A stretch of 64,000 nucleotides of DNA from Agrococcus jejuensis (GTDB lineage: Bacteria > Actinomycetota > Actinomycetes > Actinomycetales > Microbacteriaceae): NCBI RefSeq assembly GCF_900099705.1, contig NZ_LT629695.1:930001-994000 (forward strand). The letters are read 5' to 3'. This document shows, one piece after another, positions 19,599-59,987 of the stretch. The position numbers were made by a program, and so were the translations under genes. The notes beneath the pieces are model-generated. The model had not been told where the DNA came from and did not search any database. It saw nothing but the letters and a program-made list of their open reading frames with translations. How positions within the stretch are numbered: position 1 is the first letter of the stretch; each line of letters begins with the position of its first letter.

Positions 19599-21074
19599 CT
19601 ACCGGCGGTCGGACGCCTCGTCGTCCGCGGCGTCGTCGGCGAGCGGGGCGATGGGTGCCGTCTCCTGCGCGTCGGGGTCGGCGGATGCGGACTCAGGCTC
19701 CGATGCGAGGGGCGCGACGGGCTCGGTCGGCTGCGCGTCGGGGTCGGCGGCGGATGCGGCGGGCACCCAGGCGGGCTCCGCGACAGCGTCGGAGGTCTCG
19801 GTCGTCGCGGACGCCTCCGCGTCGCGCGCACGCGCGGCGGCTGCGAGCACGGCGACGTCGAGGTCCGCGGTGTCGACGTCGGCCCCCTCCTCCGGCTCCT
19901 CCACGTCGGGCGCGTTGCCCGCGAGCAGGCCGACCGCGAGCCCGAGCGCAGCGATGCCCGCGCCGACCGCGCCGACGAGCCACCACGTCGGGCCCGCGAC
20001 GTCGAGCCGGCCGGGCCCCATGCCGCCCGACGCCGCCGCGGCGAGGCCGCCGAGCACGAGCCCTGCCACGAGGCCGCCGCCGACGGCGACGATCGCCGAC
20101 TGCCACCAGTGCGTCAGCGTCGACCGCTGCCGCACGAGCGCGCCGATGCCCATCGCGGCGACGAGCGGCACGACGGCGACGATGAGCGACCACGGCTGCA
20201 CGCCGGGCACGATCGCGCCGAGCAGCGGCAGCGTCGGCACGGGGCCGAGGTCGGTGCCGAGCGGCGAGACGCTCGAGCCGGCGCCGAGCGCGAAGCCGGG
20301 CCCGAGCATCCACGACGTCGACCAGATGACGGCCGTCGGCAGCAGCGCGAGCTGCACGAGCCACAGCACGACGACGCCGAGGTGGTCGGGCTGCAGCGCC
20401 TCGAACAGCAGGATGACGTCGGCCTGCCGCACGATGAGCGCGACGCCCAGCAGCACGGCGCCGAGGCCCACGAACGCGGCGACGGTCGCGAGGCCTGCGC
20501 GCAGCGCCGCGCGCACGAGGGGCACGGTGGCCGCGTCGATCGCGAGCCAGCCGGCGGCGTCGCCGACGAGGTCGCGCGACTCCCACGCCGCACCGATCAC
20601 GAGGCCGATGAGCATGCACACGGCCGGGCCGACCGCGGCGTGCACGAGGTTCGGCGCCGCCGACTCGTGCTGCGCCGAGAGCGCGAGCACGAAGCCCAGC
20701 GCGCCCGTCGCGACCGCGCCGCCCACGAGTCCCCACGCGGGCTCGGCCGTGCGCGCGAGCCGCATGCCGCTGCGCACCGCGAGCAGGATCGTCGCGAGCC
20801 CGATGCCCCACGCGCCCACGCCGATCACGAACGGCGCCGCCGCCGCATCCGTGCCCACCGCGGCGACGGCCGCGTCGCCGAACGCGATGCCCACGTCGAC
20901 GCCGTGGCCCAGCATCCACGCGTCGACCGCGATGCGCCACGGCACCGCGATCGGCATGGCGAAGCCGCCGGCGGCGTACGCCACGAAGGCGGGCACGAGC
21001 GTGAGGAGCAGCGTCGCGAGGGCGATGGATGCCGACTCGACCGCCTGCAGGAGGACGGAGGAGAGGCGACGCAC
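19599..21074 (-). CDS. DUF6350-family multi-pass membrane protein (PerM-like)
   Basis: A 491-residue protein with ten or more hydrophobic segments in its first 400 residues and an acidic, Ala/Pro-rich, probably disordered cytoplasmic tail (from about residue 400), in which [19 protein letters not shown] and [12 protein letters not shown] look like internal repeats. Position just before purN-purH is typical of the DUF6350 family across Actinobacteria, where mycobacterial members are linked to cell division and acid/persistence phenotypes. The function here is unknown. Overlap with the leaderless purN promoter suggests a separate start of transcription for purN. Confidence 0.82.
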
Positions 21075-21223
21075 GCGGCGAGCCTAGTGGCGCGAGCGCA
21101 CCGCATCCGACCGCCTCGCGGGCGACGCCGGACGACGCCCATCCACCCGCGATAGGTTGGGACGCGGGCCTGCGCCGCCTCTCGGCGCGCCCCCACCGAC
21201 TAGCGACGAGGGACGACGCATCC

Positions 21224-23443
<2,220 letters not shown>

Positions 23444-23462
23444 TCCTTCGTAGGGCTGCTTC

Positions 23463-23576
23463 GGGCGGGGAGGTCGCTCCTCAGCTCAGACAGTGGAGAC
23501 GACCGAGGGGTCGAGGCCTGGCGGCCTCGACCCCTCGGTCGTCTCGACGACTCGACACCCCGCGACCTCCCCGCCC
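23463..23576 (+). repeat. Covarying long-hairpin 3'-end element, copy A
   Basis: Outer stem gggcggggaggtcgc / gcgacctccccgccc; conserved block ctcctcagctcagaca; perfect 23 bp inner stem (gagacgaccgag... ) with loop TGGC; conserved block ctcgacacccc. The strand given is the one reading in the sense of the upstream isocitrate dehydrogenase gene, whose stop is 19 bp away. The second outer-stem pair differs from most copies (AGGT/ACCT instead of ATGT/ACAT) yet remains paired. Confidence 0.9.
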
Positions 23577-23891
23577 TGCGCGGTCGCACCCCGGGGTGGG
23601 TGGGCACTGCGCGCGCGTCCCGAGGAGCAGCGCCCGACACGGCGATCTCGGCGCATGCAGGAGTCGGCGTGCTCCCGCGTGCCCTCGCTCGAGGGCCCAC
23701 GCTCTTCGCGTCACCCCGTCAGCTGGTCGAGGAGCGCGCTCGCGCAGCGAGCGCGCGTCACGAGACCTCGCGACCCGCGCTCCCCCGCGACCATGCACGT
23801 GACCGTCGATTCGCAGCGACCGGCCGAGACCGCCGTGCAGGGCGGCGGCACTGGAGAGGTGCGCGCAGCGCCCCCTCCTCTCGACGCCGGA
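23577..23891. other. Spacer between hairpin elements A and B
   Basis: No gene. The first ~80 bases hold a block (gcactgcgcgcgcgtccc, 23604-23621) also present beside most other copies. The block gtgcgcgcagcgcccc near 23857 is its mirror beside copy B. At 23720-23767 there is one copy of a cagctggtcgaggagcg...gcgtcacgagacc repeat also found, doubled, at 45727-45873. Confidence 0.7.
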
Positions 23892-24018
23892 GCGGCGGGC
23901 GGGGATGTCGCGGGGTGTCGAGTTACGCAGCGGGACGGCGGGGTCGCGGCCCCCAGGGCCGCGACCCCGCCGTCCCGCTGCGTTGTCTGAGCTGAGGAGC
24001 GACATCCCCGCCCGCCGC
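23892..24018 (-). repeat. Covarying long-hairpin 3'-end element, copy B
   Basis: Outer stem gcggcgggcggggatgtcgc pairs perfectly over 20 bp. The inner stem is 27 bp (cgcagcgggacggcggggtc...), unlike copy A except near the tip, with loop CCA/TGG. The element ends 14 bp beyond the stop codon of the GH3 gene, on whose strand it is annotated. It is an inverted partner of copy A. Confidence 0.9.
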
Positions 24019-24032
24019 GCCCTCTCCCGACC

Positions 24033-25850
24033 CTACGAAGACACCGACGAAGACAGATCGACCCGATGCCCAGCCGGGAACAACGGATCGTCGAACCCCG
24101 GCTGATCCTCGGGATGCTCCCGCACGTCCTGCATCGACCGCGGGATGTCGAACGGCAGCCGCCCGATGGGCGTCACGCGGCCCGTGAGCACGTCGAGGTA
24201 GGCGGCGTCGCTCGTGCCGTAGCCGACCGTGAGCGCGTCGACGACGTCGAGCCACGGCGTGAGGATCGCCGGGCGGTCGAGCGTCACGTCGAGCACCACG
24301 GGACAGTGCGCCGCGATGCGCTTGACGCGCTCGACGAGCCCGGGCGGGAAGTCGAGCGAGCCGGCGTGGAACCACGCCTCGAGGAACAGGTCGGAGCGCG
24401 GGTCGAACGGCGCCTCGAGGCGCAGCACGGCGACGTCGGCGTCCTCGGGGCGCTCGACGACCGTGAGGCCCGCGGCCTCGCATGCCGAGCGCTCCATGCC
24501 CTCGACGTACACGCGCGCGCCCTCGGCGAGGGGCACGCGCTCGGAGGCGCGCAGCACCGTCACCGACTCCGACTGCGCGAGCCGACCCGCCGCGACGAAC
24601 GCGCTCGAGCCCACGACCTCGGCGGCGCCCGACTCGCTCACGAACGGGTCGTCGAACAGGCCGAGCTCGAACTTCACGCGCAGCAGACGCCGCGCCGACT
24701 CGTCGAGCCGAGACTCCGGCACGCGGCCCGAGTCGACGAGGCGCCGCAGCACCTCGACGCACTCCTCGCCGCCGAACTGATCGACGCCGGCGTCGAGCAG
24801 CATCGCCATGCGGCCGTCGACGTCGAGGTGCTCGACGCCCCACGCGCGCGCGGGCAGCACCTGGTCGCCGACGTGGTTGTCGGTGATGAGCTCCCAGTCG
24901 CTCAGCACGACCCCGTCGAAGCCGTAGGTGCCGCGCAGCAGGTCGGTGACGATCTGCCGGTTGAAGCCGAAGCCGACCTCGTCGATCGCGACGCCGTCGA
25001 CCTCGAGGCCGATCGGCATGCCGTAGTACGGCATGACGCCGCTCGTGCCGGCGTCGATCACCGGCGCGAAGGGGGCGACGTGGTCGGCGTACCGACCCGC
25101 GGGGTACACCTGCTCGCGGCCGTACGGGAAGTGCGCATCCTCGCCGTCCATCTGCGGGCCGCCGCCCGGGAAGTGCTTGCTCGTGCACGCGACGCTGCCC
25201 GGCCCCACCCGGTCGCCCTGGAAGCCGAGCAGGTACTGCACCGCGAGCTCGGTCACCCGGGCCGGGTCCTGCCCGAACGTGCTCACCTGCCGCGCCCAGC
25301 GCGGCTCGGTCGCGAGGTCGAGCGTCGGATGCAGCGCGGCGCGGATGCCCACGGCCACGTACTCGGCGCGGGCGATCTCGGCGAACTCCCGCACGCGCGA
25401 GGGATCGTGCAGCGCGGCGAGGCCGAGCGGCTCGGGCCACTGCGAGAACATGCCGGCCGCGAACGAGGCGCCCGCGTTCGTCACGTACCCGTGGCGCGGA
25501 TCGGTCGAGATCGTCACGGGGATGCCGTGCGGCGACCGCTCCGCGAGGCGCTGCAGCGCGTTCATCCACCGCGCCGCCATGGGCGCCGTGCCGAGCTCGT
25601 GCACGTTGAAGTGGCTCAGGTGCTTGCCGAGCACGACGTCGGTCGTCGCCGACTTGCTGATGGCGCCCTTGCCCTCGACGAGCGTGCCGTCGAGGCCCGA
25701 CTCGATGACGGTGTGGAACATGAGCCCCACCTTCTCGTCGAGCGACAGGCGGGCGAGCAGGTCCTCGACCCGCTCGTCGATCGACAGGCGCGCATCCTCG
25801 TAGGGGTCGAGGACGCCGTTGCCGTTGAGGTCGCGGAACTCAGGCTGCAC
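24033..25850 (-). CDS. Family 3 glycoside hydrolase (beta-glucosidase-like)
   Basis: A 605-residue GH3 enzyme without a visible signal peptide. It opens with FRDLNGNGVLDPYEDARLS, a common GH3 start. TISTDPRHG, CTSKHFPGGGPQMDGED and VVLSDWELITDN, with the probable Asp nucleophile, build the barrel domain; a (alpha/beta)6 sandwich domain follows (from about residue 400). I chose the GTG at 25850 because GGAGGAG lies four bases upstream; it overlaps the end of the GH144-like gene by 11 bases. As last gene of a LacI-regulated importer operon it probably cleaves imported beta-gluco-oligosaccharides to glucose. Copy B of the hairpin element follows directly. Confidence 0.88.
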   Translation of the reverse strand: MQPEFRDLNGNGVLDPYEDARLSIDERVEDLLARLSLDEKVGLMFHTVIESGLDGTLVEGKGAISKSATTDVVLGKHLSHFNVHELGTAPMAARWMNALQRLAERSPHGIPVTISTDPRHGYVTNAGASFAAGMFSQWPEPLGLAALHDPSRVREFAEIARAEYVAVGIRAALHPTLDLATEPRWARQVSTFGQDPARVTELAVQYLLGFQGDRVGPGSVACTSKHFPGGGPQMDGEDAHFPYGREQVYPAGRYADHVAPFAPVIDAGTSGVMPYYGMPIGLEVDGVAIDEVGFGFNRQIVTDLLRGTYGFDGVVLSDWELITDNHVGDQVLPARAWGVEHLDVDGRMAMLLDAGVDQFGGEECVEVLRRLVDSGRVPESRLDESARRLLRVKFELGLFDDPFVSESGAAEVVGSSAFVAAGRLAQSESVTVLRASERVPLAEGARVYVEGMERSACEAAGLTVVERPEDADVAVLRLEAPFDPRSDLFLEAWFHAGSLDFPPGLVERVKRIAAHCPVVLDVTLDRPAILTPWLDVVDALTVGYGTSDAAYLDVLTGRVTPIGRLPFDIPRSMQDVREHPEDQPGFDDPLFPAGHRVDLSSSVSS

Positions 25851-27441
25851 CGAACTCCTCCGCACGCATGAGGGGGTGGAGCGCGTCGCGCACCTGGCGC
25901 GTCGCGAACGCACGCTGCACGACGCCGCCGCCGAGCACCGAGCCGAGCGCACCCATGCACATGGCCTGGTCGAGCGACAGGTGCCGGTCGGCGACGACGC
26001 CGGAGGCCGAGACGGCGTCGAGGAAGCCGCCGGGGCCGTAGGCGCCGAGCTCGTCCTCGATGCGGGCGAGGTTCGCGAACGCCGCGTCGCGCTCGTACGA
26101 CATCGCGAGCATCGCCGCGTGGGGCGTGACGACGCCGTCGCCGAAGTCGGGCGTCGGGTTCGTGCCCTCGCGCACGCCTGCGTAGCCGGCGTCGACGTTC
26201 GTGCTCTCGCGGTCGGAGAGGTAGCCGTCGGGGTTCATGCCGAGGCGGTCGACGCCGTACTCGCGGTAGCCGCCGAACGGGTCGCTCGATGGGCTGAAGC
26301 CCCACACGCCGTAGCCGGCCTCGTCGAGGCCGTGCTCGCGCTGCGCGCGCACGTGCAGCGGATGGTTGCGGCCCCAGCTGCGCCGGCCCCACGACGCCTC
26401 GGGCACGAAGAGGTCGGGCATGAGCTCCTCGAACATCGAGCCGCCCCAGCCGGGCACGATGCGCATGCCGCGGTACTCGTACGCACCCTCGAAGACCTCG
26501 ATGCCCTGGTATGTGCGGCTGACGCCGACGGGCCGCGACTCCTGCCACGCCCAGTCGTCGCCGCCGGGGAACGTGCGCCAGGCCGCGTAGTAGTGCGCGG
26601 CGGGCACCTGACCGGCGACGATGCCGAGGTACGACGTCATGCGCGTCTCCGAGACGAACGTGTCGTAGTGGTGATTCGAGAGCCACACGGGATCGCCACC
26701 GATGTGGCTGCCCTGGTACACCTCACCCGGGCGGTCGTGCTCGTCGACGAAGAACCCGCCGTGCATGAGGCCGCCCGGCCGCACCGTCGGGTGCTCGGCA
26801 CCCGTCCCGGGGTTGTAGAACGCATCCCAGCGCATCCGCTCCCAGACCTGGCGCGCCAGCTCTGCGGGGCGGCCGGGGATGGCCGACATGACGACGCGCA
26901 TCGCGGCGCCGAGCCACGCGTTGTCGACGCTCGACGCGAAGCGGTAGACGGGATCGCCCGAGTCGGGCCACGTGCGCAGCGCCTCGCCGGTCGCCTCGGA
27001 GTACCAGTTGTAGAGCATGCCCGAGGGCTCGTGATGCTCGACCTGCAGCACGGTCTCGAGCGTGCGGGTCGCGAGCGCGTCGAGGTCGCGACGCGACACG
27101 ATGCCGAGCTCGCGGGCGACGACGCCCGACCACAGCAGGCCGCCGATGTTCGTCGGCGACGTGTAGCCGCTGCGACCCGAGAGGTCGCCGAGCACGTTGT
27201 CGGCGGGCAGGCCCGTCGTCTCGTCGGTCATGGCGACGAGCGACGTCCAGGTGTCCTGCGCCCAGCGGCGCGCGCGACGGCCCGAGAAGCCGTGGCCGGA
27301 GCCGCCGTGCGCGACGAGCGGAGACGCGGATGCGGGGGTCGCCGCGCCGAACGCGACGGTGGCTGCAGCCGCGAGGCCGCCGACCATGAACCCGCGGCGC
27401 GAGACGCCGAACGAGTCGGAGGGTGATGTGGGCAGGGGCAT
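25840..27441 (-). CDS. Tat-exported glucoamylase-like hydrolase (PF10091 type, GH144-like)
   Basis: A 533-residue protein with a twin-arginine signal (SRRGFMVGGLAAAATVAFG, residues 14-32). The mature part resembles the 'glucoamylase-like' PF10091 domain: PTNIGGLLWSGVVAREL, SSVDNAWLGAAMRVV, GGSMFEELMPDLFVPEASWG, YGVWGFSPSSDPFG and GVVTPHAAMLAMSYERDAA. The GH144 endo-beta-1,2-glucanases belong to this fold family. With the GH3 and ABC genes beside it, I infer hydrolysis of an extracellular beta-glucan (possibly beta-1,2) before uptake. Activity on other glycans cannot be excluded. The ATG at 27441 is 11 bp behind the permease stop. Confidence 0.75.
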   Translation of the reverse strand: MPLPTSPSDSFGVSRRGFMVGGLAAAATVAFGAATPASASPLVAHGGSGHGFSGRRARRWAQDTWTSLVAMTDETTGLPADNVLGDLSGRSGYTSPTNIGGLLWSGVVARELGIVSRRDLDALATRTLETVLQVEHHEPSGMLYNWYSEATGEALRTWPDSGDPVYRFASSVDNAWLGAAMRVVMSAIPGRPAELARQVWERMRWDAFYNPGTGAEHPTVRPGGLMHGGFFVDEHDRPGEVYQGSHIGGDPVWLSNHHYDTFVSETRMTSYLGIVAGQVPAAHYYAAWRTFPGGDDWAWQESRPVGVSRTYQGIEVFEGAYEYRGMRIVPGWGGSMFEELMPDLFVPEASWGRRSWGRNHPLHVRAQREHGLDEAGYGVWGFSPSSDPFGGYREYGVDRLGMNPDGYLSDRESTNVDAGYAGVREGTNPTPDFGDGVVTPHAAMLAMSYERDAAFANLARIEDELGAYGPGGFLDAVSASGVVADRHLSLDQAMCMGALGSVLGGGVVQRAFATRQVRDALHPLMRAEEFGAA

Positions 27442-27452
27442 GATGGGCTCCT

Positions 27453-28289
27453 TCACTTGATGCCGGTCGTGGCGATGCCTTCGATGAATCGCCTTTGGAA
27501 GATGAGGAACACCGCGAGCACGGGCACGATCACGACGGTCGCGCCGGCGAGCAGCAGTCCGTACTGCGTCTGGTTCTGGCCGGTCGACTCGAGCGCGAGC
27601 ACGACCGGCAGCGTGTACTGGTCGGCGCGCTGGGCGACGACGAGCGGCCACAGGAAGCTGTTCCAGCTGCCGAGGAACGTGAGGATGCCGAGCGTCGCGA
27701 GCGCGGGGCCGAGCAGCGGCAGGATGACCTGGCCGAAGATGCGCAGCTCCCCCGCGCCGTCGACGCGCGCGGCGTGCACGAGGTCGATCGGCAGCCCGAG
27801 CGCGAACTGCCGCATGAGGAACACCCCGAACGGCGTCACGAGGAACGGCAGGATGAGGCCGAGCAGGCTGTCGGCCAGCCCCGCGTTCACGACGAGCACG
27901 AACAGCGGCACGAACGTCACGAGCCCGGGGATCATGAGCGTGCCGATGATGACGCCGAACAGGGCAGTGCGGCCCTTGAACTCGAGCATCGCGAGCGCGT
28001 AGCCGACCATCGAGCAGAACAGCAGGTTGCCCGCCGTCACGGCGAGCGCGATGAGCGTCGAGTTGAGGAACGCGCGACCGAAGCCCGCACCGGTGAGCAC
28101 CTCGACGAAGTTGTCGAGCGTCGGCGCCTCCGGCAGGAACGTCGGCGGCACCATGCGCAGCTCGGCATCGGTCTTGAGGCTGCCGAGCACCATCCACACG
28201 AACGGTGCGACGACGGCGACGAGCGCGATCGTGAGCAGCAGGTACAGCCACCACCGGTTGCGGAAGGTGGGCTCTCCGCGGCCGGCCAT
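27453..28289 (-). CDS. Carbohydrate ABC transporter permease, MalG type
   Basis: A 278-residue permease with six membrane segments. In the EAA loop (PIDLVHAARVDGAGELRIFGQ, near residue 175) His-Ala-Ala replaces Glu-Ala-Ala but the DGAGxxxIF part is intact. The ATG shares one base with the upstream stop (TGATG), so the two permeases are coupled. It belongs to the second sugar importer of the window. There is no ATPase gene in the operon. Confidence 0.92.
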   Translation of the reverse strand: MAGRGEPTFRNRWWLYLLLTIALVAVVAPFVWMVLGSLKTDAELRMVPPTFLPEAPTLDNFVEVLTGAGFGRAFLNSTLIALAVTAGNLLFCSMVGYALAMLEFKGRTALFGVIIGTLMIPGLVTFVPLFVLVVNAGLADSLLGLILPFLVTPFGVFLMRQFALGLPIDLVHAARVDGAGELRIFGQVILPLLGPALATLGILTFLGSWNSFLWPLVVAQRADQYTLPVVLALESTGQNQTQYGLLLAGATVVIVPVLAVFLIFQRRFIEGIATTGIK

Positions 28290-29239
28290 CAGTCCTTCTC
28301 CCTCAGGAGGCGGAACTGGATGGCCGTGATCGCCGCGATCGCCGCGAACATCACGTACGACACCGCCGACGCGAAGCCGAACTCGCCGAACGAGAACTGC
28401 TCGTACGTGTACAGCGCGACCGACAGGGTGCTGTCGAGCGGGCCGCCGCCATCCGTCATCACGAACGGCTCCTCGAAGAACTGCAGGTAGCCGATCATCG
28501 TCGTCACCGAGACGAACAGGATCGTGGGGCGCAGCAGGGGCAGGGTGATCGAGCGGAACCGCTGCCAGCCGTTCGCCCCGTCGAGCTCCGCCGCCTCGCG
28601 CAGCGACGCCGGCACGGTCTGCAGGCCGGCGAGGAAGATGATCATCGCCGTGCCGAAGTTGCGCCACACCGCCATCGCGACGAGCGACGGCATCGCCCAC
28701 GTCGTCGACCCGAGCCAGTTGGGGCCGTCGATGCCGACCCACGCGAGCACGGTGTTCGCGAGGCCGTGGTCGGGGTGCAGGATGAAGCGCCACACGACGG
28801 CGACGGCCACGATCGACGTGATGACGGGCGTGTAGAAGCCGAGGCGGAAGATCGCGCGCAGCCGGCCGATCCCCCGGTCGAGGGCGACGGCGGCGGCGAG
28901 CGCGACCATGAGCGTGAGCGGCACGCCCACGACGACGAAGCCGAGCGTGTTGACGATCGCGCGCAGGAAGCGCTCGTCGCCGAACGCCTCGACGAAGTTG
29001 TCGAGGCCGACGAAGTCGACTGCGAACGGGCTCGCGAGGTCGCGCCGCGTGGCGTCGGTGAACGACAGGAACACCGACTGCAGCAGCGGCCAGGCCGTGA
29101 AGGCGAGGAACAGCGCCAGGAACGGGATCGCGAGCGTCCACGCCGCGATGGCCTGCCTGCGTGCCCCGGGCGCGCCTCGCCGGCGCCCGGACCGCACGGG
29201 TCCGGGGCCGACGCCGCGCGCGGCGGCGGAGGTGGTCAT
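28289..29239 (-). CDS. Carbohydrate ABC transporter permease, MalF type
   Basis: A 316-residue permease. The N-terminal 30 residues are basic and Gly/Pro/Ala-rich; six hydrophobic segments and an EAA loop (ASLREAAELDGANGWQRF, near residue 215) follow. It lies nine bases behind the binding-protein stop and is coupled to the MalG-type permease. Confidence 0.92.
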   Translation of the reverse strand: MTTSAAARGVGPGPVRSGRRRGAPGARRQAIAAWTLAIPFLALFLAFTAWPLLQSVFLSFTDATRRDLASPFAVDFVGLDNFVEAFGDERFLRAIVNTLGFVVVGVPLTLMVALAAAVALDRGIGRLRAIFRLGFYTPVITSIVAVAVVWRFILHPDHGLANTVLAWVGIDGPNWLGSTTWAMPSLVAMAVWRNFGTAMIIFLAGLQTVPASLREAAELDGANGWQRFRSITLPLLRPTILFVSVTTMIGYLQFFEEPFVMTDGGGPLDSTLSVALYTYEQFSFGEFGFASAVSYVMFAAIAAITAIQFRLLREKD

Positions 29240-29248
29240 GCGAGCGCC

Positions 29249-30526
29249 CTACTGTCCCGTGCCGATGTCCTCGGCCTCGGCCTGCACGCCCGCGAGCGCC
29301 TCGGCCGGATCCTCGCCGGCCTTCGCGACCCGCTCGAGCGCCTGGTCGAGCTCGGTCGCGACCTGCTCCCACGAGGGGAACGACGGCGGGGCGACGGCGG
29401 TCTCGAGCTCGGTGCCGAACGCCGACAGTCGGGCGTCGTCGGCGAGCACGGGCTCGTCCCAGGCCGACTGCACCGACGGCAGCGCCGACGTCAGCTCGTA
29501 CCACTCGACCTGCACCTCGGGCTGCGTCAGGTAGTCGACGAACGCCCAGGCGAGGTCGCGGTTCTCGGTCTCCTGGAAGACGGCGAGGTTCGAGCCGCCG
29601 ACGAACGACACCGACTCGGCGCCGTCGTTCGCGGGCACGGGCGCGACGTCGTACAGCTCGTCGAAGCCCTCGCCGCCGAGCTCCTCGACGATCGACATCA
29701 TCCACGGACCCGACAGGAACATCGGGATGCGGCCCGACACGAAGTCGGCCTCCGTCTGGCCCTCCGGCGGGTTCGGGTCGGCGATGCCGTCGTCGAAGAA
29801 GCCCTGGAAGTACTCCGTCGCCTCCACCATCTCGGGGGTGTCGAGCGCATACGCGTCGTCGGTGGCGATCTCGGCGCCGTTGCTCCACGCGAGCGGCAGC
29901 ACCGTCTGCCAGCCGCCCGTGCCGCCGGGCTGCAGGTTCATGCCCCACTCGACGCCGTCCTGCTGCTGCATCGCGGCGGCCATCTCCTGGAACCCGGCCC
30001 AGTCGGCCGGCACCTCGTCGTAGCCTGCGGCGGCAGCGATGTCGGTGCGGTAGTAGACCATGCGGGTCTCGACGTACCAGGGCAGGCCGTAGGTGATGCC
30101 GTCGACCTCGGTCGTCGCCTGCGCGCCCTCGAAGTACTGGCTGTCGTCGAAGCTCGGCGGCGTCGGCTCGAGCGCGCCCTGGCCGGCGAAGTCGCCCATC
30201 CAGGTCGTGCCCACCATGGCCGCGTCGGGCGTCGAGCCCGCGGTGATGGCGTTCGAGAAGCGGTCGTAGGCGGCATCCCACGGCACGGGCGTCACGGTGA
30301 TGCTCGTGTCGGGGTGCTCCTCCATGAAGGCGTCGGCGAGCGCGGGCAGCGCCTCGCCCTCGGCGCCCATGGCCCAGACCTCGATGTCGCCGGAGAGGTC
30401 GTCGAACGAGACCTCCTCGGCGCTCGCGGCCGGGGCCTCGTCGGCGTCGGGTCGCCCGCATCCCGTGAGGATGAGGGCCGTGGCCGCGGTCGTCGCGATC
30501 GCGGCGGTGATGGTCGTTCGTCGCAC
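29249..30526 (-). CDS. Sugar ABC transporter substrate-binding lipoprotein
   Basis: A 425-residue family 1 solute-binding protein. The signal peptide ends in the lipobox LILTGC (Cys near residue 23). Family features include IEVWAMGAEGEALPALADAF, PWYVETRMVYYRTD and SFVGGSNLAVFQETENRDLAW. The GTG at 30526 is supported by AAGGAG seven bases upstream and an immediate signal peptide. It lies 38 bp behind the LacI gene. It delivers the oligosaccharide to the two permeases downstream. Confidence 0.92.
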   Translation of the reverse strand: MRRTTITAAIATTAATALILTGCGRPDADEAPAASAEEVSFDDLSGDIEVWAMGAEGEALPALADAFMEEHPDTSITVTPVPWDAAYDRFSNAITAGSTPDAAMVGTTWMGDFAGQGALEPTPPSFDDSQYFEGAQATTEVDGITYGLPWYVETRMVYYRTDIAAAAGYDEVPADWAGFQEMAAAMQQQDGVEWGMNLQPGGTGGWQTVLPLAWSNGAEIATDDAYALDTPEMVEATEYFQGFFDDGIADPNPPEGQTEADFVSGRIPMFLSGPWMMSIVEELGGEGFDELYDVAPVPANDGAESVSFVGGSNLAVFQETENRDLAWAFVDYLTQPEVQVEWYELTSALPSVQSAWDEPVLADDARLSAFGTELETAVAPPSFPSWEQVATELDQALERVAKAGEDPAEALAGVQAEAEDIGTGQ

Positions 30527-30564
30527 CGGAGTCTCCTTCGTCTGTCGGTGTCGGGTCAGAGCAG

Positions 30565-31554
30565 TCAGGGGTGCGCGCCGCACGAGTCGCGCACGACGAT
30601 CTCGGTCGCGAGCGTCGGTGCAGGCGCAAGAGGCTCGCCGGGGGCGTCGATCATGGCCCGCATGCGGCGGGCAGCACCGGCGCCGAGCTCGACGACGGGC
30701 TGACGCACGGTCGTGAGCGCGGGGCGCGTGAATCGGGCCGCCATGATGTCGTCCCAGCCGACGATCGAGATGTCGCGGCCCACGGCGACGCCGCCGTCGA
30801 CGAGCGCGCTCACGATCGCGACGGCGAGCTCGTCGTTCGCGCACATGAGCGCGTCGGCGCGGATCGTGCCGTCGAGGATCGCCGCGGCCACCTCGTAGCC
30901 GTCGCGCTCGCGCAGCGGTGTGCGGATGGGCTCGGTCGCGTCGCCGAAGACGCTGCGGAAGCCCGCGTGGCGCTCGGCGATGTCGGTCGCGAGGTCGGGG
31001 TCGCCGACGAAGAGCGCCCGCGTGCGCCCGTGGTCGGCGAGGTGCTGCGCGAGCGAGCGGGCGCTCTCGTCGTTGGCGGTGCGCCACGACTCGAGGCCCA
31101 CGTCGTCGCCGTCGGCGAGACCGAGCACGGGGATGCGCTGGCGGATGGCCGAGAGGGTGTGCGGCGCGAGGCGGTGGGCGCTCATGATGACCATGCCGTC
31201 GACGTTCGCCGCGAGGCGGCGCAGCGCGGCGTCGAGGTCGCGCTGCTCGCTCGCGATCGACACGATGAGGCTCTCGTCGCGCTCGGCGACGGCCGACTCG
31301 TAGCCCAGCAGCAGCTCCGCGTAGTACGGACCCGAGAGCTCGGGCAGCACGAGCCCGTGGGCAGCGTGGCGGTGCGCGGCGAGGGACTGCGCGGCGCCGT
31401 GCGGCACGTAGTCGAGCTCGGCGACGGCGGCCAGCACGCGCTCGCGGGTGCCCTCTGCGACGCGCTGCGGCGAGGCGAGCACGCGCGAGACGGTGGCGAC
31501 GGAGACGCCGGCGCGGTCGGCGACGGTGTAGACCGTCGCTCGTCGAGCTGCCAT
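30565..31554 (-). CDS. LacI-family transcriptional regulator
   Basis: A 329-residue repressor. The N-terminal LacI HTH reads YTVADRAGVSVATVSRVLASPQRV (residues 9-32), with a hinge helix (GAAQSLAAHRHA) near 55. A periplasmic-binding-protein-like sensor domain follows (MCANDELAVAIVSALVDGGV, ISIVGWDDIMAARFTRPALTTVRQ). A perfect GTAAGCGCTTAC operator 15 bp before its start points to autorepression and control of the operon behind it (binding protein, permeases, GH144-like, GH3). The inducer is unknown. Confidence 0.93.
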   Translation of the reverse strand: MAARRATVYTVADRAGVSVATVSRVLASPQRVAEGTRERVLAAVAELDYVPHGAAQSLAAHRHAAHGLVLPELSGPYYAELLLGYESAVAERDESLIVSIASEQRDLDAALRRLAANVDGMVIMSAHRLAPHTLSAIRQRIPVLGLADGDDVGLESWRTANDESARSLAQHLADHGRTRALFVGDPDLATDIAERHAGFRSVFGDATEPIRTPLRERDGYEVAAAILDGTIRADALMCANDELAVAIVSALVDGGVAVGRDISIVGWDDIMAARFTRPALTTVRQPVVELGAGAARRMRAMIDAPGEPLAPAPTLATEIVVRDSCGAHP

Positions 31555-31568
31555 GCGAACCTCCGTTG

Positions 31569-31580
31569 GTAAGCGCTTAC
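31569..31580. promoter_or_regulatory. LacI-type operator
   Basis: GTAAGCGCTTAC is a perfect 12 bp palindrome with the central CG of LacI/GalR operators, within ggtaagcgcttacat, 15 bp before the regulator's start. It is the only such site I see in the operon, so control is probably at this single promoter. Confidence 0.85.
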
Positions 31581-31660
31581 ATCAAGGGTAGGCAGAATCT
31601 GGACTGGATGACAAGGGACGGGGCGGAAGATGCGTGTGCGGCAGGTTTCCTGGCCGCTCC

Positions 31661-31776
31661 GGGCGGGGAGGTCGCTCCTCAGCTCAGACAGTGGGCATGG
31701 AGCAGGGGGTCGAGGCCTGGCGGCCTCGACCCCCTGCTCCATGCCCACAACTCGACACCCCGCGACATCCCCGCCC
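31661..31776 (+). repeat. Covarying long-hairpin 3'-end element, copy C
   Basis: Perfect 27 bp inner stem (gtgggcatggagcagggg...) with loop TGGC and both conserved blocks. The outer stem is gggcggggaggtcgc / gcgacatccccgccc, with one mismatch: left arm as in copy A, right arm as in the majority. This is the only copy with a broken outer pair. It does not follow a gene end; it lies 107 bp before the LacI start, as inverted partner of copy D. Confidence 0.9.
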
Positions 31777-32068
31777 TGCGCTCGCGTCTGAGGAGGCCAA
31801 CCCCGTGGGAGGGGCGCTGCGCGCGCGTCCCGCGGAGCCGCGCCCGACACGGCGATCCCGGCCCATTCGAGACCCGGCGTAGGCCCGCCCGCGATCGCGA
31901 GGAGCGCGACGCTCGTGCGCTCCAACGAGCCGCACCGCCGCCGAGCGCGTCGCGACCGCGCCTCCGTGGGGCGTTCGGTGAGCACTGCAGGGGCCGGGAC
32001 CGCCGTGCGGGAGGGCAGCCCTCCAGGAGGCGCGCGCAGCGCCCTCCCCCACGACCTGCATCCGCGGC
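31777..32068. other. Spacer between hairpin elements C and D
   Basis: No gene. Near copy C it holds gcgctgcgcgcgcgtccc (31814-31831) followed by gcccgacacggcgat, very similar to the A-B spacer; near copy D is the mirror gcgcgcgcagcgccc. The centre is unique. Confidence 0.7.
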
Positions 32069-32187
32069 GGGCGGGGATGTCGCGGGGTGTCGAGTTGTGC
32101 GCGGGGACGGCGGTGGCTGCGGCCCCCAGGGCCGCGGCCACCGCCGTCCCCGCGCACTGTCTGAGCTGAGGAGCGACATCCCCGCCC
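32069..32187 (-). repeat. Covarying long-hairpin 3'-end element, copy D
   Basis: Outer stem gggcggggatgtcgc, perfect. The inner stem of about 29 bp begins gtgcgcggggacggcggtgg and has one T.G pair when read on the plus strand (an A.C mismatch on the minus strand). The tip is GCGGCCC-CCA-GGGCCGC. It lies 75 bp behind the sucD stop codon, with the sucD terminator hairpin in between. Confidence 0.9.
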
Positions 32188-32215
32188 GACGCACCCCAGC
32201 ACAGCCACAGAACGC

Positions 32216-32247
32216 AACAGGGCCCCGACCGAAGCCGGGACCCTGTT
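32216..32247 (-). terminator. Hairpin terminator downstream of sucD
   Basis: AACAGGG and CCCG pair with CGGG and CCCTGTT, each strand with a one-base bulge, around a 7-8 base loop, 15 bp behind the sucD stop. Confidence 0.7.
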
Positions 32248-32262
32248 CCAGTCAGACGAGCG

Positions 32263-33162
32263 TCAGAGCGCCGCGATGACCTCGCGCATGAGGCGCGCCG
32301 TCTCGGACGGCGTCTTGCCGACCTTGACGCCAGCAGCCTCGAGCGCGACCTTCTTCGCCTCGGCCGTGCCCGACGAGCCCGAGACGATGGCGCCTGCGTG
32401 GCCCATCGTCTTGCCCTCGGGAGCCGTGAAGCCGGCGACGTAGCCGACGACGGGCTTCGTGACGTTGGCCTTGATGAAGTCGGCTGCGCGCTCCTCGGCG
32501 TCGCCGCCGATCTCGCCGATCATCACGATGGCCTTCGTCTCGGGGTCGGCCTCGAACGCCTCGAGGGCGTCGATGTGCGTCGTGCCGATGATCGGGTCGC
32601 CGCCGATGCCGATGGCGGTCGAGAAGCCGATGTCGCGCAGCTCGAACATCATCTGGTAGGTCAGGGTGCCCGACTTCGACACGAGGCCGATGGGGCCCTT
32701 GCCCGTGATGTTCGCGGGCGTGATGCCGACGAGCGACTCGCCCGGCGTGATGATGCCGGGGCAGTTCGGGCCGATGATGCGCGTCGTGCCCGTGGACTTC
32801 GCGTGCGCCCAGAACTCGGCGGAGTCCTGCACGGGGATGCCCTCGGTGATGACGACGAGCAGGCCGATGCCTGCGTCGATGCCCTCGATGACGGCGTCCT
32901 TGGCGAAGGCCGGCGGCACGAAGACGATGGAGACGTCGGCGCCGGTGGCGGCCATGGCCTCCTTCACCGAGCCGAACACGGGCAGCTCGACGGGCGAGCC
33001 GTCCTGCGTGACGTGGTTGACCGTCGTGCCGGCCTTGCGGGCGTTGACGCCGCCCACGACCTGCGTGCCGGCCGCGAGCATGCGGGCGGTGTGCTTGGAG
33101 CCCTCGCCGCCGGTGATGCCCTGGACGATGACCTTCGAATCCTTGTTCAGGTAGATCGACAT
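32263..33162 (-). CDS. sucD: Succinyl-CoA synthetase subunit alpha
   Basis: With SucC it interconverts succinyl-CoA and succinate, making ATP or GTP in the TCA cycle. The 299-residue protein has the CoA-binding fold ([20 protein letters not shown]), [12 protein letters not shown], and the phosphohistidine motif GHAGAIVSG near residue 250. The ATG at 33162 matches family starts ([14 protein letters not shown]). It lies 11 bp behind sucC. Confidence 0.97.
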
Positions 33163-35428: not shown

Positions 35429-35830
35429 ATGGACACCACCGCATCCGAGGGCGCCGTCGCCCTCGAGGTCAGGATCGAGCTCGTCTTCGTGCCCGTCGCC
35501 GACGTCGACCGCTCCGTCGCCTTCTACGGCGACACCCTCGGCTGGCACGTCGACCACGACTCCACCGTCTCCGAGTCGCTGCGCTTCGTGCAGGTGACGC
35601 CGCCGGGCTCGGCGTGCTCGATCGCGTTCGGCCTCGGCATCAGCGACGACGAGCCGGGCACGATGCGCAACGTGCAGGCGGTGATCCCGGATGCGGATGC
35701 GGCGCTCGCCGACCTGCGCGCCCGCGGCGTCGCCGCCGAGGGCGTCGACGACCTCTCGTGGGGCCGCTTCGTCTCGTTCGCCGACCCCGACGGCAACCGC
35801 TGGGTGCTGCAGCAGCTCCCGCCGCGCTGA
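35429..35830 (+). CDS. VOC-superfamily (glyoxalase/bleomycin-resistance-like) protein
   Basis: A 133-residue single VOC module: ELVFVPVADVDRSVAFYGDTLGWHVDHD at the start and GRFVSFADPDGNRWVLQQLP at the end, the usual beta-alpha-beta-beta-beta borders. The family ranges from glyoxalases to drug-binding proteins, so the function is not known. The ATG lies six bases behind a TAGCGT box (leaderless). Confidence 0.85.
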   Translation: MDTTASEGAVALEVRIELVFVPVADVDRSVAFYGDTLGWHVDHDSTVSESLRFVQVTPPGSACSIAFGLGISDDEPGTMRNVQAVIPDADAALADLRARGVAAEGVDDLSWGRFVSFADPDGNRWVLQQLPPR

Positions 35831-35978
35831 CCAGCGGCGCCACCTGCACCCTCGCGCACCTGCGCGCGATCGCACCGCTTCGAGCCGAGAGGTCGTCGAG
35901 CCCGCCGGGAAGGTCGCGGCGCACCAGGACGCGCGCGCAGCCCCACCCCACCCGCTGCTGCCCCGCACCCACCGACGG

Positions 35979-36096
35979 CGTGGGCGGATGTCGCGGGGTG
36001 TCGAGTTCTGCAGGCGAGCGTGGGGCTCGAGGCCGCCAGGCCTCGAGCCCCGCGCTCGCCTGCAGTGTCTGAGCTGAGGAGCGACATCCGCCCACG
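35979..36096 (-). repeat. Covarying long-hairpin 3'-end element, copy E
   Basis: The outer stem differs from most copies, cgtgggcggatgtcgc / gcgacatccgcccacg, and is perfectly paired. The inner stem is 27 bp (ctgcaggcgagcgtgggg...) with one T.G pair on the plus strand and loop GCCA/TGGC. It lies 148 bp behind the VOC gene and 55 bp before the MBL gene, one of two copies not in sense behind a stop codon. The block gacgcgcgcgcagcccc lies 40-55 bp upstream (35927-35943). Confidence 0.9.
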
Positions 36097-36151
36097 ACGT
36101 CCCCCCGTCAATCGCACGAGCCCGACCAGACCCAGGACTACGCTCCGCACC

Positions 36152-43250: not shown

Positions 43251-43801
43251 CCGTCGAGGCCGGCGCACCCGTCGAGGGTGCGCCGGCCTCGCCCCGCGTG
43301 CACCCTCGAGCGCACCGGGTCGAGGCCATGGTCGTCGTGGGCGTCGTCATCGCGCTCGCGATCGCGACGCTCGTGCTCACGACGCAGATCCCGCAGGGCG
43401 GGCAGGCGACGACGCTCAGCGCCCGCGTCATCCCCTACGTCGTCGGCGGGCTGCTGCTCGTCGCCGGCATCGGCGTGCTCGTCGGCCAGCTGCGCGGCCG
43501 CTTCGGCGAGGCCGAGGAAGGCGAGGACGTCGACCTCGAGCACGGCACGTCGTGGGTCACCACCGGCGTCGTCGCGCTCGCGTTCCTGTCGCTCGTGCTC
43601 ACCATCCCGCACCTCGGGTGGCCGCTCGCCGTCACCGTGCTCTTCGGCGCCTCCGCCATCGCGCTCGGCGCCAAGAAGTGGTGGATCGCCGTGCTCGTCG
43701 GCCTCGGCCTCGGCGTCGTGACCCAGCTGCTGTTCGGCAGCCTCCTCGGACTCTCGCTGCCCGCCACGGGCACCCTCACCGGCTGGATCCCCCTTGGATA
43801 G
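43247..43801 (+). CDS. tctB: Tripartite tricarboxylate transporter small membrane subunit
   Basis: A 184-residue membrane protein with about four spans ([59 protein letters not shown], and a long C-terminal pair), as for TctB. The GTG start overlaps the tctC stop. Residues 2-16 ([15 protein letters not shown]) are encoded by a perfect 15 bp inverted repeat, which may limit translation of this and the next gene. Confidence 0.88.
43256..43290 (+). promoter_or_regulatory. Strong hairpin at the tctC-tctB junction
   Basis: GAGGCCGGCGCACCC, loop GTCGA, then GGGTGCGCCGGCCTC: a perfect 15 bp GC stem starting six bases behind the tctC stop and lying inside the first codons of tctB. By analogy with other transporter operons it may stabilise or end the tctC message, giving more binding protein than membrane subunits. 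Confidence 0.75.
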
Positions 43802-45467
43802 CCTCACTCTCCTCCTCGAGGGCTTCGCGGCCGCCGCGCAGCCCATCAACCTGCTGTTCGCCCTGCTGGGCGTCTTCGTCGGCACCGCCGTCGGCGTGCT
43901 GCCCGGCATCGGCCCCGCCATGACCGTGGCGCTGCTGCTGCCCATCACGTACGCGCTCGAGCCGACGCAGGCGCTCATCGTCTTCGCCGGCATCTACTAC
44001 GGCGGCATGTACGGCGGGTCGACGACGTCGATCCTGCTGAACACGCCGGGCGAGTCCGCGTCGATCGTCACCGCGCTCGAAGGCAACAAGATGGCTCGCG
44101 CCGGCCGCGGCGCCGCAGCCCTCGCGACGGCGGCGATCGGCTCGTTCATCGCCGGCACCATCGCCACGGCGCTGCTGACGCTCGTCGCCCCGACCGTCGC
44201 CCGCTGGGCGGTGTCGCTCGGCCCCGCCGACTACTTCGCGCTCATGATGCTCGCGTTCCTCACCGTCGGCGCCCTCTTCGGCTCCAGCGTGTGGCGCGGC
44301 CTCGTGTCGCTCGCGATCGGCCTGCTCATCGGCCTCGTCGGCGTCGACTCCATCTCCGGCCAGTCGCGCTTCACGCTCGGCATCCCGCAGCTCACCGACG
44401 GCATCGACGTCGTGCTCGTGGCCGTCGGCCTCTTCGCCCTCGGCGAGGCGCTCTACGTCGGCTCGCGCCTGCGCAACGGCGAGATCCCGCTCATCCCCAT
44501 CACCCGCGGATGGCGCACCTGGATGCGCCGCTCCGACTGGGCGCGCTCGTGGAAGCCGTGGCTGCGCGGCACCGCCATCGGCTTCCCCATCGGCACCATC
44601 CCCGCCGGCGGCGCCGACGTGGCCACGTTCCTGTCGTACGCGACCGAGCGCGGCCTCGCGAAGGGCGAGTACAAGAAGCAGTTCGGCAAGGGCGCCATCG
44701 AAGGCGTCGCCGGCCCCGAGTCGGCGAACAACGCCGCTGCCGCCGGCGTGCTCGTGCCGCTGCTGACGCTCGGCATCCCCACCACCGCGACCGCGGCGAT
44801 CATCCTGTCGGCGTTCCAGACGTACGGCATCCAGCCCGGCCCGCGCCTGTTCGAGACGCAAGGGCCGCTCGTGTGGGCGCTCATCGCGAGCCTCTACATC
44901 GGCAACATCATGCTGCTCGTGCTGAACCTGCCGCTCGTCGGGCTCTGGGTGAAGCTGCTGCAGATCCCCCGCCCCTACCTCTACGCAGGCATCCTCACCT
45001 TCGCGGGCCTCGGCGCGTACGCGGCGAACTTCACCACGTTCGACGTCGTCGTGCTGCTCGTGCTCGGCATCATGGGATTCTTCATGCGCCGCCAAGGCTT
45101 CCCCGTGTCGCCGCTCGTCGTCGGCGCCATCCTCGGCCCCATGGCCGAGGAGCGCCTGCGGCAGTCGATGCAGCTCGGCGTCGGCGACCCCGCCTACCTC
45201 GTGCACTCGCCGTTCGCGATCGTCGCCTACGTGCTCGCGGTGGTCATCATCGGCCTGTCGCTGTGGCTGCGACGCCGCAGCGCGAAGTTCGAGGCGACGC
45301 TGGCAGCCGAGACGGAGTCGGCGTCGACCGAGTCGATCGCGACGCTCGACGAGACGATCGAGTCGCATGAGCCGCACCCGCAGGTCGAGCGGGGTGCGCT
45401 GTCGACGACGTCGATCCCGACGGAGCGGCGTCGGCGGTTCGGTCGGAAGGATGATCCGCCGTCGTGA
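43794..45467 (+). CDS. tctA: Tripartite tricarboxylate transporter large membrane subunit
   Basis: A 557-residue permease with about eleven to twelve spans. [21 protein letters not shown] and [21 protein letters not shown] are the conserved TctA signatures; [19 protein letters not shown] and [20 protein letters not shown] mark the second repeat half. It uses an ion gradient to import citrate-like acids delivered by TctC. The start is TTG at 43794, overlapping the tctB end by eight bases. The C-terminus is a charged cytoplasmic tail. Hairpin element copy F starts 15 bp behind its stop. Confidence 0.95.
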
Positions 45468-45482
45468 TGCATTGAGCGGGGC

Positions 45483-45612
45483 GGCGGCGTGCTCGGATGT
45501 CGCTCCTCAGCTCAGACAACGGAGACGACCGGAGGGGGTCGAGGCCTGGCGGCCTCGACCCCCTCCGGTCGTCTCCGTAACTCGACACCCCGCGACATCC
45601 GAGCACGCCGCC
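45483..45612 (+). repeat. Covarying long-hairpin 3'-end element, copy F
   Basis: The outer stem is the longest, ggcggcgtgctcggatgtcgc, and is perfectly paired over 21 bp. It is unlike the gggcgggg of other copies, so many bases changed on both sides. The perfect inner stem is 28 bp (acggagacgaccggaggggg...) with loop TGGC. It is in sense behind tctA, 15 bp after the stop codon. Confidence 0.92.
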
Positions 45613-45995
45613 TTCGGTCCCCAGAGAGGGGGCGCTGCGCGCGCGTCCCGGCGAAGCCATCCGACACGGCGGCCTCGGCGGAGCCGGTGGTCGGCGAGGG
45701 GCCTCTGCGCTCGGCGTGCTGGTGGTGCGCGGGTCTCGAGACGGCTGCTCGCCCAGGGGGCTCGCGGCCTCCTCGACCAGCTGCGAGGACGCGCGCCGCC
45801 CCTCTCAGGCGGCCTCCTCGCAGCTGGTCGAGGAGCGCGCGAGCGCAGCGAGCACGCGTCACGAGACCCGCGCACCCGCGATCACGCCGGGCCGCAGGAC
45901 GCCCGCCAACCCCCGAACCCGCCGAGACCGCCGAGCAGGTCAGTCGCACCGGCACGCGCGCGCAGCCCCACCCCCACGGATGGATCCGCCCGCAC
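45613..45995. other. Spacer between hairpin elements F and G
   Basis: No gene. It holds the block gcgctgcgcgcgcgtccc (45632-45649), an inverted pair of another repeat (45727-45873), and the mirror block gcacgcgcgcgcagcccc next to copy G. Confidence 0.7.
45727..45873. repeat. Inverted pair of a second dispersed repeat (tggtcgaggagcgcgcgagcgcagcgag type)
   Basis: The right arm, tcctcgcagctggtcgagga continuing into gcgcgagcgcagcgagc and gcgtcacgagacccgc, is matched in inverse orientation by the left arm (gcgggtctcgaga ... tcctcgaccagctgcgagga). One further copy is at 23720-23767. Sequences of the type 'ctcgacgagcg...gctgcgctcgctc' are abundant in Microbacteriaceae genomes, as far as I recall. 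Confidence 0.75.
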
Positions 45996-46123
45996 GCGTC
46001 GGGCGGGGATGTCGCGGGGTGTCGAGTTACGCCGGAGAGCGGAGGGGGTCGTGGCCCCCAGGCCACGACCCCCTCCGCTCTCCGGCGTTGTCTGAGCTGA
46101 GGAGCGACATCCCCGCCCGACGC
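45996..46123 (-). repeat. Covarying long-hairpin 3'-end element, copy G
   Basis: Outer stem gcgtcgggcggggatgtcgc, perfect over 20 bp; perfect 27 bp inner stem (cgccggagagcggaggggg...) with loop CCCA/TGGG. It lies 30 bp behind the uvrD stop codon, in the gene's sense on the minus strand, and is the inverted partner of copy F. Confidence 0.92.
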
Positions 46124-46153
46124 GGCCCAGCCACCCTCGACCCGACCAAGGAC

Positions 46154-48556: not shown

Positions 48557-48770
48557 GTCGCCCACCAGCCTACGGCGCACCACCGACGCGCCGGGCCGGA
48601 TCCGCCATCACGCGGGCACCTCTCGAGGCTCGCTCCGCTCGCACCTCGAGGAGCGGTCCTGCGGCGCCCTCGCGACCGGGGACCTTCGGTGACCACCGCA
48701 CACGCTGAGTCCGCCGAGTAGGACCTCGGCGTTGGGACGCGCGCGCAGCATCCCCTCCTCCGGATGCGCC
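48557..48770. other. Gap upstream of uvrD
   Basis: No gene. On the minus strand a TAGGCT box 10 bases before the uvrD start may be its promoter. A hairpin ctcgaggctcgctccgctcg / cacctcgag (48625-48655) is visible. The block gggacgcgcgcgcagcatcccc (48734 onward), shared with other copies of the hairpin element, precedes copy H. Confidence 0.6.
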
Positions 48771-48892
48771 GGCGGGCTCGGATGTCGCGGGGTGTCGAGT
48801 TACGGAGACGACCGGAGGGGTCGAGGCCGCCAGGCCTCGACCCCTCCGGTCGTCTCCGTTGTCTGAGCTGAGGAGCGACATCCGAGCCCGCC
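48771..48892 (-). repeat. Covarying long-hairpin 3'-end element, copy H
   Basis: Outer stem ggcgggctcggatgtcgc / gcgacatccgagcccgcc, perfect over 18 bp and different from the other copies. The 27 bp inner stem (acggagacgaccggagggg...) is closely related to copies A and F, with loop GCCA/TGGC. It lies 17 bp behind the stop codon of the LTD-domain protein, in sense with it. Confidence 0.92.
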
Positions 48893-48909
48893 GCCCCTCA
48901 GCAAGGACC

Positions 48910-59674: not shown

Positions 59675-59846
59675 GTCGATCAGTCTCCTCGTCCGGGCTG
59701 CCCACTGCATCCCTCACCAAGACGTCGAACGAGCCCCCGAGAGATCGACACGACACGAAGTTCCCCTCCAGAGGACCTCGGCGGCCGCCGCTCGCGAAGC
59801 GAGCGCCAGCCGCCGCAGCCCCACCGCCCGCGCGAGGCCGAGCGCC
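59675..59846. other. Gap upstream of the orphan DGPF gene
   Basis: It contains the predicted ECF42 promoter (59721-59750) and a hairpin cgctcgcgaagcgagcg (59789-59805), followed by cgccgcagccccacc, which matches the conserved block beside the other hairpin elements. There is no gene. Confidence 0.65.
59721..59750 (-). promoter_or_regulatory. Predicted ECF42-type promoter of the orphan DGPF gene
   Basis: The minus strand reads TGTCGA (59745-59750), 17 bases, CGACGTC (59721-59727), 46 bp before the start codon. The spacer differs completely from that of the first copy, so the match is not from recent duplication of the whole region. Confidence 0.8.
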
Positions 59847-59972
59847 GATCGCGCGGGGACGTCGCGGGGTGTCGAGTTACGCAGACGACCGGAGGGGGTC
59901 GCGGACGCTAGTCCGCGACCCCCTCCGGTCGTCTGCGTTGTCTGAGCTGAGGAGCGACGTCCCCGCGCGATC
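59847..59972 (-). repeat. Covarying long-hairpin 3'-end element, copy I
   Basis: Outer stem gatcgcgcggggacgtcgc / gcgacgtccccgcgcgatc, perfect over 19 bp. The majority T-A pair is C-G here. Inner stem 27 bp (cgcagacgaccggagggggt...), with a changed tip GGAC-GCTA-GTCC instead of GGCC-GCCA-GGCC, again with both sides changed. It lies 15 bp behind the guaA stop codon in the gene's sense. Confidence 0.92.
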
Positions 59973-59987
59973 AGCGCGGAGCCACCA

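Follow-up and report, generated by a model that had tools for sequence, protein, structure and literature searches.

Eleven copies of a long hairpin element, built from two nested helices around a nearly invariant internal loop, lie close to guaA in the genome of Agrococcus jejuensis and represent what is apparently an undescribed structured family specific to the Microbacteriaceae, one family of soil bacteria. Confidence is high in the family and its covariation, which are well supported, and also in a rule of position: the element sits directly behind a gene, with its structured strand antisense to that gene. Its function is proposed tentatively, as a cis-acting RNA structure that would stop antisense transcription from entering the gene from behind, a reading drawn from sequence comparison whose probability is put well short of even.

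Copies, architecture and covariation

The window (the whole stretch of DNA that was analysed, 64,000 nucleotides at positions 930,001–994,000 of a genome of 3,400,078 bases) holds all nine copies that an earlier note on this DNA had listed (Table 1). Block GTCGCTCCTCAGCTCAGACA occurs nine times in the window with no mismatch (chance mean 0.01), and block AACTCGACACCCCGCGAC also nine times, eight exactly and once with a single change at 23549. In the block order of the earlier note, three copies are on the + strand (23473, 31671 and 45499) and six on the - strand. The common build described there holds for each copy: the outer stem has roughly 15 to 24 pairs, the inner one roughly 26 to 29, and the loop at its tip some 2 to 4 bases. 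The description of the elements as long, structured, non-coding and without an Rfam family is likewise supported, by Rfam searches and by covariation.

A covariance-model search of the genome, which the earlier note had proposed, used a model built from the 11 copies and left the total at 11 elements, two of them outside the window (block A at 1,004,679 and 1,005,363) and all inside 953,453–1,005,402, i.e., 52 kb around guaA. Among the 150 of 9109 first-look candidates that were scored, these 11 reach 119–148 bits, the next match is partial at 27 bits, and no decayed copies were seen; all 11 are intact. The earlier note had held that a lack of further copies elsewhere in the genome would speak against its proposal. 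That lack is nearly complete, since the two additional copies belong to the cluster already seen; outside this genome, however, the family recurs widely among Microbacteriaceae. Four inverted pairs, each spanning about 500–700 nt, account for eight of the 11 copies, and three of these pairs sit between convergent genes. In such convergent pairs each gene can own one copy in its own orientation (e1/e2, e6/e7).

Table 1. Elements in the window, with an example of the sequence that follows the hairpin
Feature	Position	Structured strand	Setting
e1	23453..23586	-	behind icd (monomeric isocitrate dehydrogenase, 21029-23443 +)
e2	23887..24023	+	behind glycoside hydrolase family 3 gene (24033-25952 -); inverted pair with e1
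e3	31651..31786	-	exception: faces 5' end of LacI-type gene (30565-31554 -)
e4	32059..32197	+	behind sucD; inverted pair with e3
e5	35970..36105	+	exception: upstream of metallo-beta-lactamase-fold gene
e6	45479..45616	-	behind TctA-type transporter gene (43794-45467 +)
e7	45991..46128	+	behind pcrA/uvrD-type helicase gene (46154-48583 -); inverted pair with e6
e8	48764..48899	+	behind LPXTG/lamin-tail-domain surface protein gene (48910-51285 -)
e9	59841..59978	+	behind guaA (59988-61559 -); position conserved across genera
Tail common to most own-genome copies (e6 example)	45617..45720		GGGGCGCTGCGCGCGCGTCC ... ACACGGCGGCCTCGGC

The element consists of an outer helix (P1), a near-invariant purine-rich internal loop and an inner helix (P2). 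The loop core is CGAGUU opposite UGUYUGAGC, and most members share GGGGUG(N)CGAGUU opposite UGUYUGAGCUGAGGA. Nearly all of the more distant members retain CGAGUU and UGUYUGAG and differ in the part of the loop beside the outer stem. The letters at the loop centre permit C-G, G-A and A-G pairs, and would perhaps form a tandem (sheared) G-A arrangement. Three short variants (L137, L140 and L142) of about 72–78 nt have no inner stem and retain the outer stem with part of the loop. The loop of L138 (G664) looks unrelated. The guaA copy of one Agrococcus species (L031/L126, G001) has a longer inner arm and an extra insertion.

Both stems vary freely in sequence and retain their pairing. Among the 11 copies of this genome, 31 of 49 pairs are changed on both sides and no cell is changed on one side only, which backs the claim that these are structured elements. 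Across 34 sequences from several genera, standard pairs fill 94.2% of cells (57.0% in shuffles), double-sided changes affect 423 cells (122.9 in shuffles), and the covariation score is 0.909, as against 0.208 in shuffled alignments and at most 0.169 when slid. Compensatory changes that maintain two helices around a fixed loop are one mark of a structured RNA. No family of Rfam 15 matched the window at the gathering score. At 11 relative loci, searched at E values up to 5, the sole match above the gathering score was the 5S rRNA beside the L073 element, and matches on the hairpin itself were to microRNA and sRNA models below threshold. Membership in a known RNA family was therefore rejected, as no Rfam family fits the window or these loci.

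The structured strand and its place behind genes

The blocks are as the earlier note described them; the structured strand is the reverse of its block order. In the earlier orientation the stem imperfections are mostly A-C, and on the opposite strand they are G-U. For 60 distinct elements the structured strand shows 108 G-U (G-T in DNA) against 16 A-C imperfections; 41 elements are richer in G-U, 4 are richer in A-C and 15 are ties. As a control, 103 other hairpins of the same 82 kb gave 35 G-U and 40 A-C, with no bias. The imbalance is present in all three context classes (72:12, 16:2 and 20:2), including the 16:2 found in 15 elements whose 5'-side gene is off the structured strand. The count began with 20 sequences and was later extended to larger sets plus the control; the set of 60 includes only elements with a near-exact loop, leaving out variants such as e1 and L112–L122 (except L115). 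Common ancestry among the elements makes the counts non-independent, and p-values are not to be taken literally; the bias recurs in several genera.

An excess of G-U over A-C on one strand is a further mark of structured RNA. Since a duplex site or a cruciform would give no such bias, 108:16 points to selection on one single strand, as RNA or as single-stranded DNA, and confidence is high that this strand is the reverse of the earlier block order. The absence of a T-tract, as the earlier note had it, was borne out: a T-rich stretch (5 of 8) lies 16–50 nt past the core in 0 of 60 elements on the structured strand, and in 3 of 60 on the other. A hairpin followed by a U-tract, the form of an intrinsic terminator, was found neither here nor in two stretches scanned for promoters. 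Comparing the numbers of G-T and A-C imperfections may likewise give an easy test of strand for palindromic repeats of other kinds.

Placement was assessed in 70 distinct elements that passed a stem filter. With gene calls based on an open-frame and codon-position-GC rule rather than annotation, and partial genes at locus ends included, 63 have a predicted gene no more than 1 kb away, on the structured strand's 3' side. In 60 of the 63 the structured strand is antisense to that gene, which runs towards the element, and the median distance from gene end to element core in these cases is 49.5 nt. The exceptions are e3, e5 and L121, two of them among the nine window copies. All three short variants without an inner stem follow the rule. 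The 5'-side gene is on the structured strand in 43 of the 70, on the other strand in 17 and unassigned in 10; 37 elements lie between convergent genes and 17 behind genes without a convergent neighbour. The abutting genes are diverse, and include guaA, phoH, rplA, a biotin carboxylase gene, icd, sucD, pcrA, an IMP dehydrogenase gene and gcvP, among others. A second recurrent client is phoH, at Cryobacterium loci and in one other genus (L063, L057, L076 and L119).

Seven of the 70 elements have no 3'-side gene. L073 lies behind a 5S rRNA gene identified by Rfam, and the same 5S letters are seen by eye at L059, L060, L079 and L085. The filter dropped L056, L062, L064 and L114. By eye, L056 is ambiguous and the other three are antisense: L114 sits behind guaA, and L062 and L064, which a looser earlier gene rule had counted as exceptions, sit behind 5S rRNA letters. 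The elements beside 5S rRNA (L059, L060, L062, L064, L073, L079 and L085) belong to Cryobacterium and Glaciibacter loci and lie past the operon's own terminator-like hairpins. The sucD gene at e4 was recognised by succinyl-CoA ligase alpha domains in a - strand frame ending at 32263, and by eye a terminator-like hairpin lies between it and the element.

Distribution and spread

A pattern scan of one genome per species found 34 stretches, all in Microbacteriaceae, from the genera Agrococcus, Cryobacterium, Leifsonia, Glaciibacter, Compostimonas and Mycetocola. The search of other Microbacteriaceae that the earlier note had called for, with a model from 34 sequences, matched at least 52 of 398 genomes in 20 of 85 genera; eight candidates were scored per genome, which makes this a lower bound, and the weakest matches are doubtful. 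At the level of the order, 6 of 396 genomes matched. The only one outside the Microbacteriaceae (G057) is doubtful, scores alike on both strands and was left out of the family count. Viral contigs gave no match to one exact pattern and plasmids none to one query, and carriage by phage or plasmid was rejected for these collections.

The conserved site of the family is guaA, which bears the element in ten genera, always in antisense orientation. Within the genus, 13 of 24 genomes have a match (this one included), and in ten Agrococcus genomes the search found a single copy, each time directly behind guaA. The guaA copy is probably the ancestral one. The element is not essential to guaA, because in the 11 genomes of the genus without a match guaA was located in 10, and none of these 10 has the core behind it. 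One assembly (G007), listed with 8% contamination, has two guaA copies of the element (L125 and L135).

The earlier note took the density of copies as a hint of mobility. Copies have indeed spread, but in this genome no farther than about 37 kb from the guaA copy, the conserved one; among the candidates scored no decayed copy was seen, no Y1 transposase was found, and guaA has retained its copy in ten genera. Under uniform placement, ten copies would fall that close by chance with a probability of about 2e-17, and the spread of copies in this genome is therefore local. The family as a whole does not follow this local pattern, since in G029, a genome of another genus, the copies are far apart (0.21, 0.79 and 2.57 Mb); Cryobacterium copies are also scattered over the genome or over contigs. 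A mark of the replication origin was considered and rejected, as about 0.67 Mb separates the cluster from dnaA (1.675 Mb), and the cluster is not opposite dnaA either.

Most copies of this genome have in common a tail of about 90 nt past the hairpin. A 15-base motif of the tail has six exact matches in the genome, five of them in the cluster; with one mismatch it occurs at 18 places (8 in the cluster) against 34 for the reversed control, so that only exact matches are informative. The sister genome G009 carries five of the copies. Between icd and sucD, this genome has an insert of about 8.8 kb (23441–32263) with genes for a GH3 hydrolase, an ABC-transporter permease and a LacI regulator, bounded by the pairs e1/e2 and e3/e4, and G009 has only about 257 bp there. 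At the guaA locus the two genomes are almost the same in guaA and in the outer portion of the outer stem but differ in the hairpin core, which suggests that cores may have been exchanged between copies. Faster turnover of stems than of their surroundings is true of e9 in this comparison; it is not claimed generally, as the inner stems of e6 and e7 are identical there, and part of the identity figures are rough because some aligned pieces are offset.

Several neighbouring features were recorded alongside. At 35830–36148 of the window, where e5 lies here, G009 and G023 have by eye a TetR-like frame between the same two genes. Another repeat, with conserved ends GTCTCGTGACG ... CTCCTCGACCAGCTG and a variable stem, occupies 45724–45876 of the window and other intergenic regions; it lies between the two members of element pairs, and sister genomes have it at sites where no element is present. 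In G023, the orthologous gap between the TctA and pcrA genes (L091), which holds e6/e7 in this genome, contains a different long hairpin beside a similar GCGCGCGCAGC motif, together with an additional open frame.

Function and relation to known systems

In the reading tentatively favoured here, the structured strand would act as RNA in cis. Antisense RNA polymerase, arriving by convergent readthrough or from divergent or pervasive initiation, would transcribe the element, and the rod with its conserved loop would fold behind the polymerase. The loop would then be read by RNA polymerase, a termination factor or a nuclease, and the antisense transcript would be ended or destroyed before it enters the gene from the 3' side. 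A factor that reads the loop is assumed, rather than an ordinary intrinsic terminator, because there is no U-tract. Other genes may have gained their copies by duplication, in this genome only locally. For a structure that is specific to one strand and directed at a gene from behind, stopping antisense transcription seems the simplest use. Slightly more doubtfully, the elements could form a new class of cis-acting "back-door" insulator, loop-specific, applied gene by gene, lacking a U-tract and having guaA as its ancestral client. If the antisense block is true, these actinobacteria have a dedicated, factor-dependent insulator.

Some observations stand against the antisense block. The 5'-side gene of 17 of the 70 elements has the opposite direction, several elements lie by eye past their neighbours' own terminators, where little transcription is expected, and single-stranded DNA would tolerate G-T pairs as well. 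Three elements (e3, e5 and L121) depart from the rule of position, and the core is absent behind guaA in 10 genomes of the genus. Two stretches were scanned for sigma-70-like promoters and none was found, with a scan of low power that expects none in GC-rich DNA. A reading as single-stranded DNA keeps a substantial share because no promoter was found and because copies lie past terminators. The main rival, unlikely though to be taken seriously, is accordingly a REP-like repeat, mobile now or formerly, whose single-stranded form is recognised at the internal loop by an enzyme of the host or of the element itself; its position behind genes would be due, at the same low likelihood, to target choice. 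Related genomes have anything from 0 or 1 copies up to 11, syntenic sites of sister strains lack copies, and the common tail, the scattered copies of G029 and Cryobacterium, and the resemblance of the inverted pairs to BIMEs all suit this rival. The G-T bias fits single-stranded DNA equally well, and tandem G-A pairs of the form 5'-PyGAPu-3' are stable in DNA too. Against it, the Y1 (IS200-like, PF01797) transposase was found in neither this genome nor any of 12 multi-copy genomes, by a search that was positive in 5 of 14 control genomes, and membership in the REP/RAYT group was rejected on this ground. The intact copies, the guaA site kept in ten genera, the null results in viral contigs and plasmids, and the confinement of spread in this genome to the surroundings of guaA also argue against it.

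The remaining alternatives meet the strand bias or the placement less well. It is improbable that the element belongs to the 3' end of the abutting gene's own mRNA, as a terminator or a barrier to 3' exonucleases on the sense strand. It does lie directly behind the stop in 60 of 63 cases, the guaA loci leave little room for another terminator, and long hairpins without U-tracts have been described as actinobacterial terminators; yet imperfections on the sense strand are mostly A-C, contrary to the pattern expected from selection on that RNA, a terminator needs no invariant loop blocks, and in some loci a terminator of the gene's own is seen by eye ahead of the element. A trans-acting small RNA gene like 6S or Ms1 RNA, at home behind guaA and duplicated in some genomes, is a still slimmer prospect. 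The rod with its internal loop of 13 to 15 nt between two long helices, the conserved synteny and the bias towards one strand would suit such a gene, but there are up to 11 copies with many different neighbours, strict placement behind stops would not be needed, no promoter appeared in the low-power scan of two stretches, and the Rfam 6S covariance models gave no match in the window or at 11 relative loci. A double-stranded site for a nucleoid protein or gyrase, BIME-like and between convergent genes, with palindromy arising through template switching rather than folding, would account for loop blocks almost invariant across genera and for the 37 of 70 copies between convergent genes. It gives no reason for the 108:16 strand bias, which control palindromes lack, and is very improbable.

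Long rods with a central bubble that bind RNA polymerase are known from 6S and Ms1 RNA. The element resembles them in its long rod and central single-stranded bubble, and differs in synteny, in lacking an Rfam match, in being multi-copy, in its purine-rich conserved loop and in the absence of a promoter where scanned. Identity with Ms1 is not supported by synteny, which for Ms1 involves HAD-hydrolase and oxidoreductase genes, the word guaA being absent from that paper (PMC9130861). A literature search, largely of titles and abstract openings, found nothing on this element, and five terms looked for in PMC2864571 had no occurrence. Stem-loop repeat families that are intergenic, have one secondary structure each and are suspected of acting as RNA were described in a survey of 40 genomes (Cozzuto et al. 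2008, PMC2267715); neither Leifsonia nor the word Actinobacteria appears in that text. Compared by description only, they are like the present family in being repeated intergenic sequences with a common secondary structure (PMC2267715).

Among other systems, the paired hairpins of the present family, with their compensatory changes and spread, recall the double-hairpin elements of fungal mitochondria, which show the same features and are set apart, by description, by their hosts and by the conserved internal loop and fixed position behind genes seen here. Bidirectional terminators between convergent genes keep convergent transcripts apart, as the element would also do, but the element has no U-tract, an invariant loop and one copy per gene in fixed orientation, and it also follows genes that have no convergent neighbour (17 of 70). 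REP elements and BIMEs, with their RAYT transposases, are intergenic palindromes at the 3' ends of genes, often in inverted pairs and in variable copy number, with one strand that matters, and all of these traits recur here. REP elements carry a conserved tetranucleotide at the hairpin foot. Here, the foot (the outer stem and beyond) varies freely between copies, the conserved part is an internal loop between two nested helices, searches gave no Y1 transposase, copy number is low and the guaA locus is conserved. To our knowledge, most bacterial interspersed palindromes have neither an assigned active strand nor a strict placement rule. In the present family both can be read from the sequence, and an anonymous repeat becomes a testable device.
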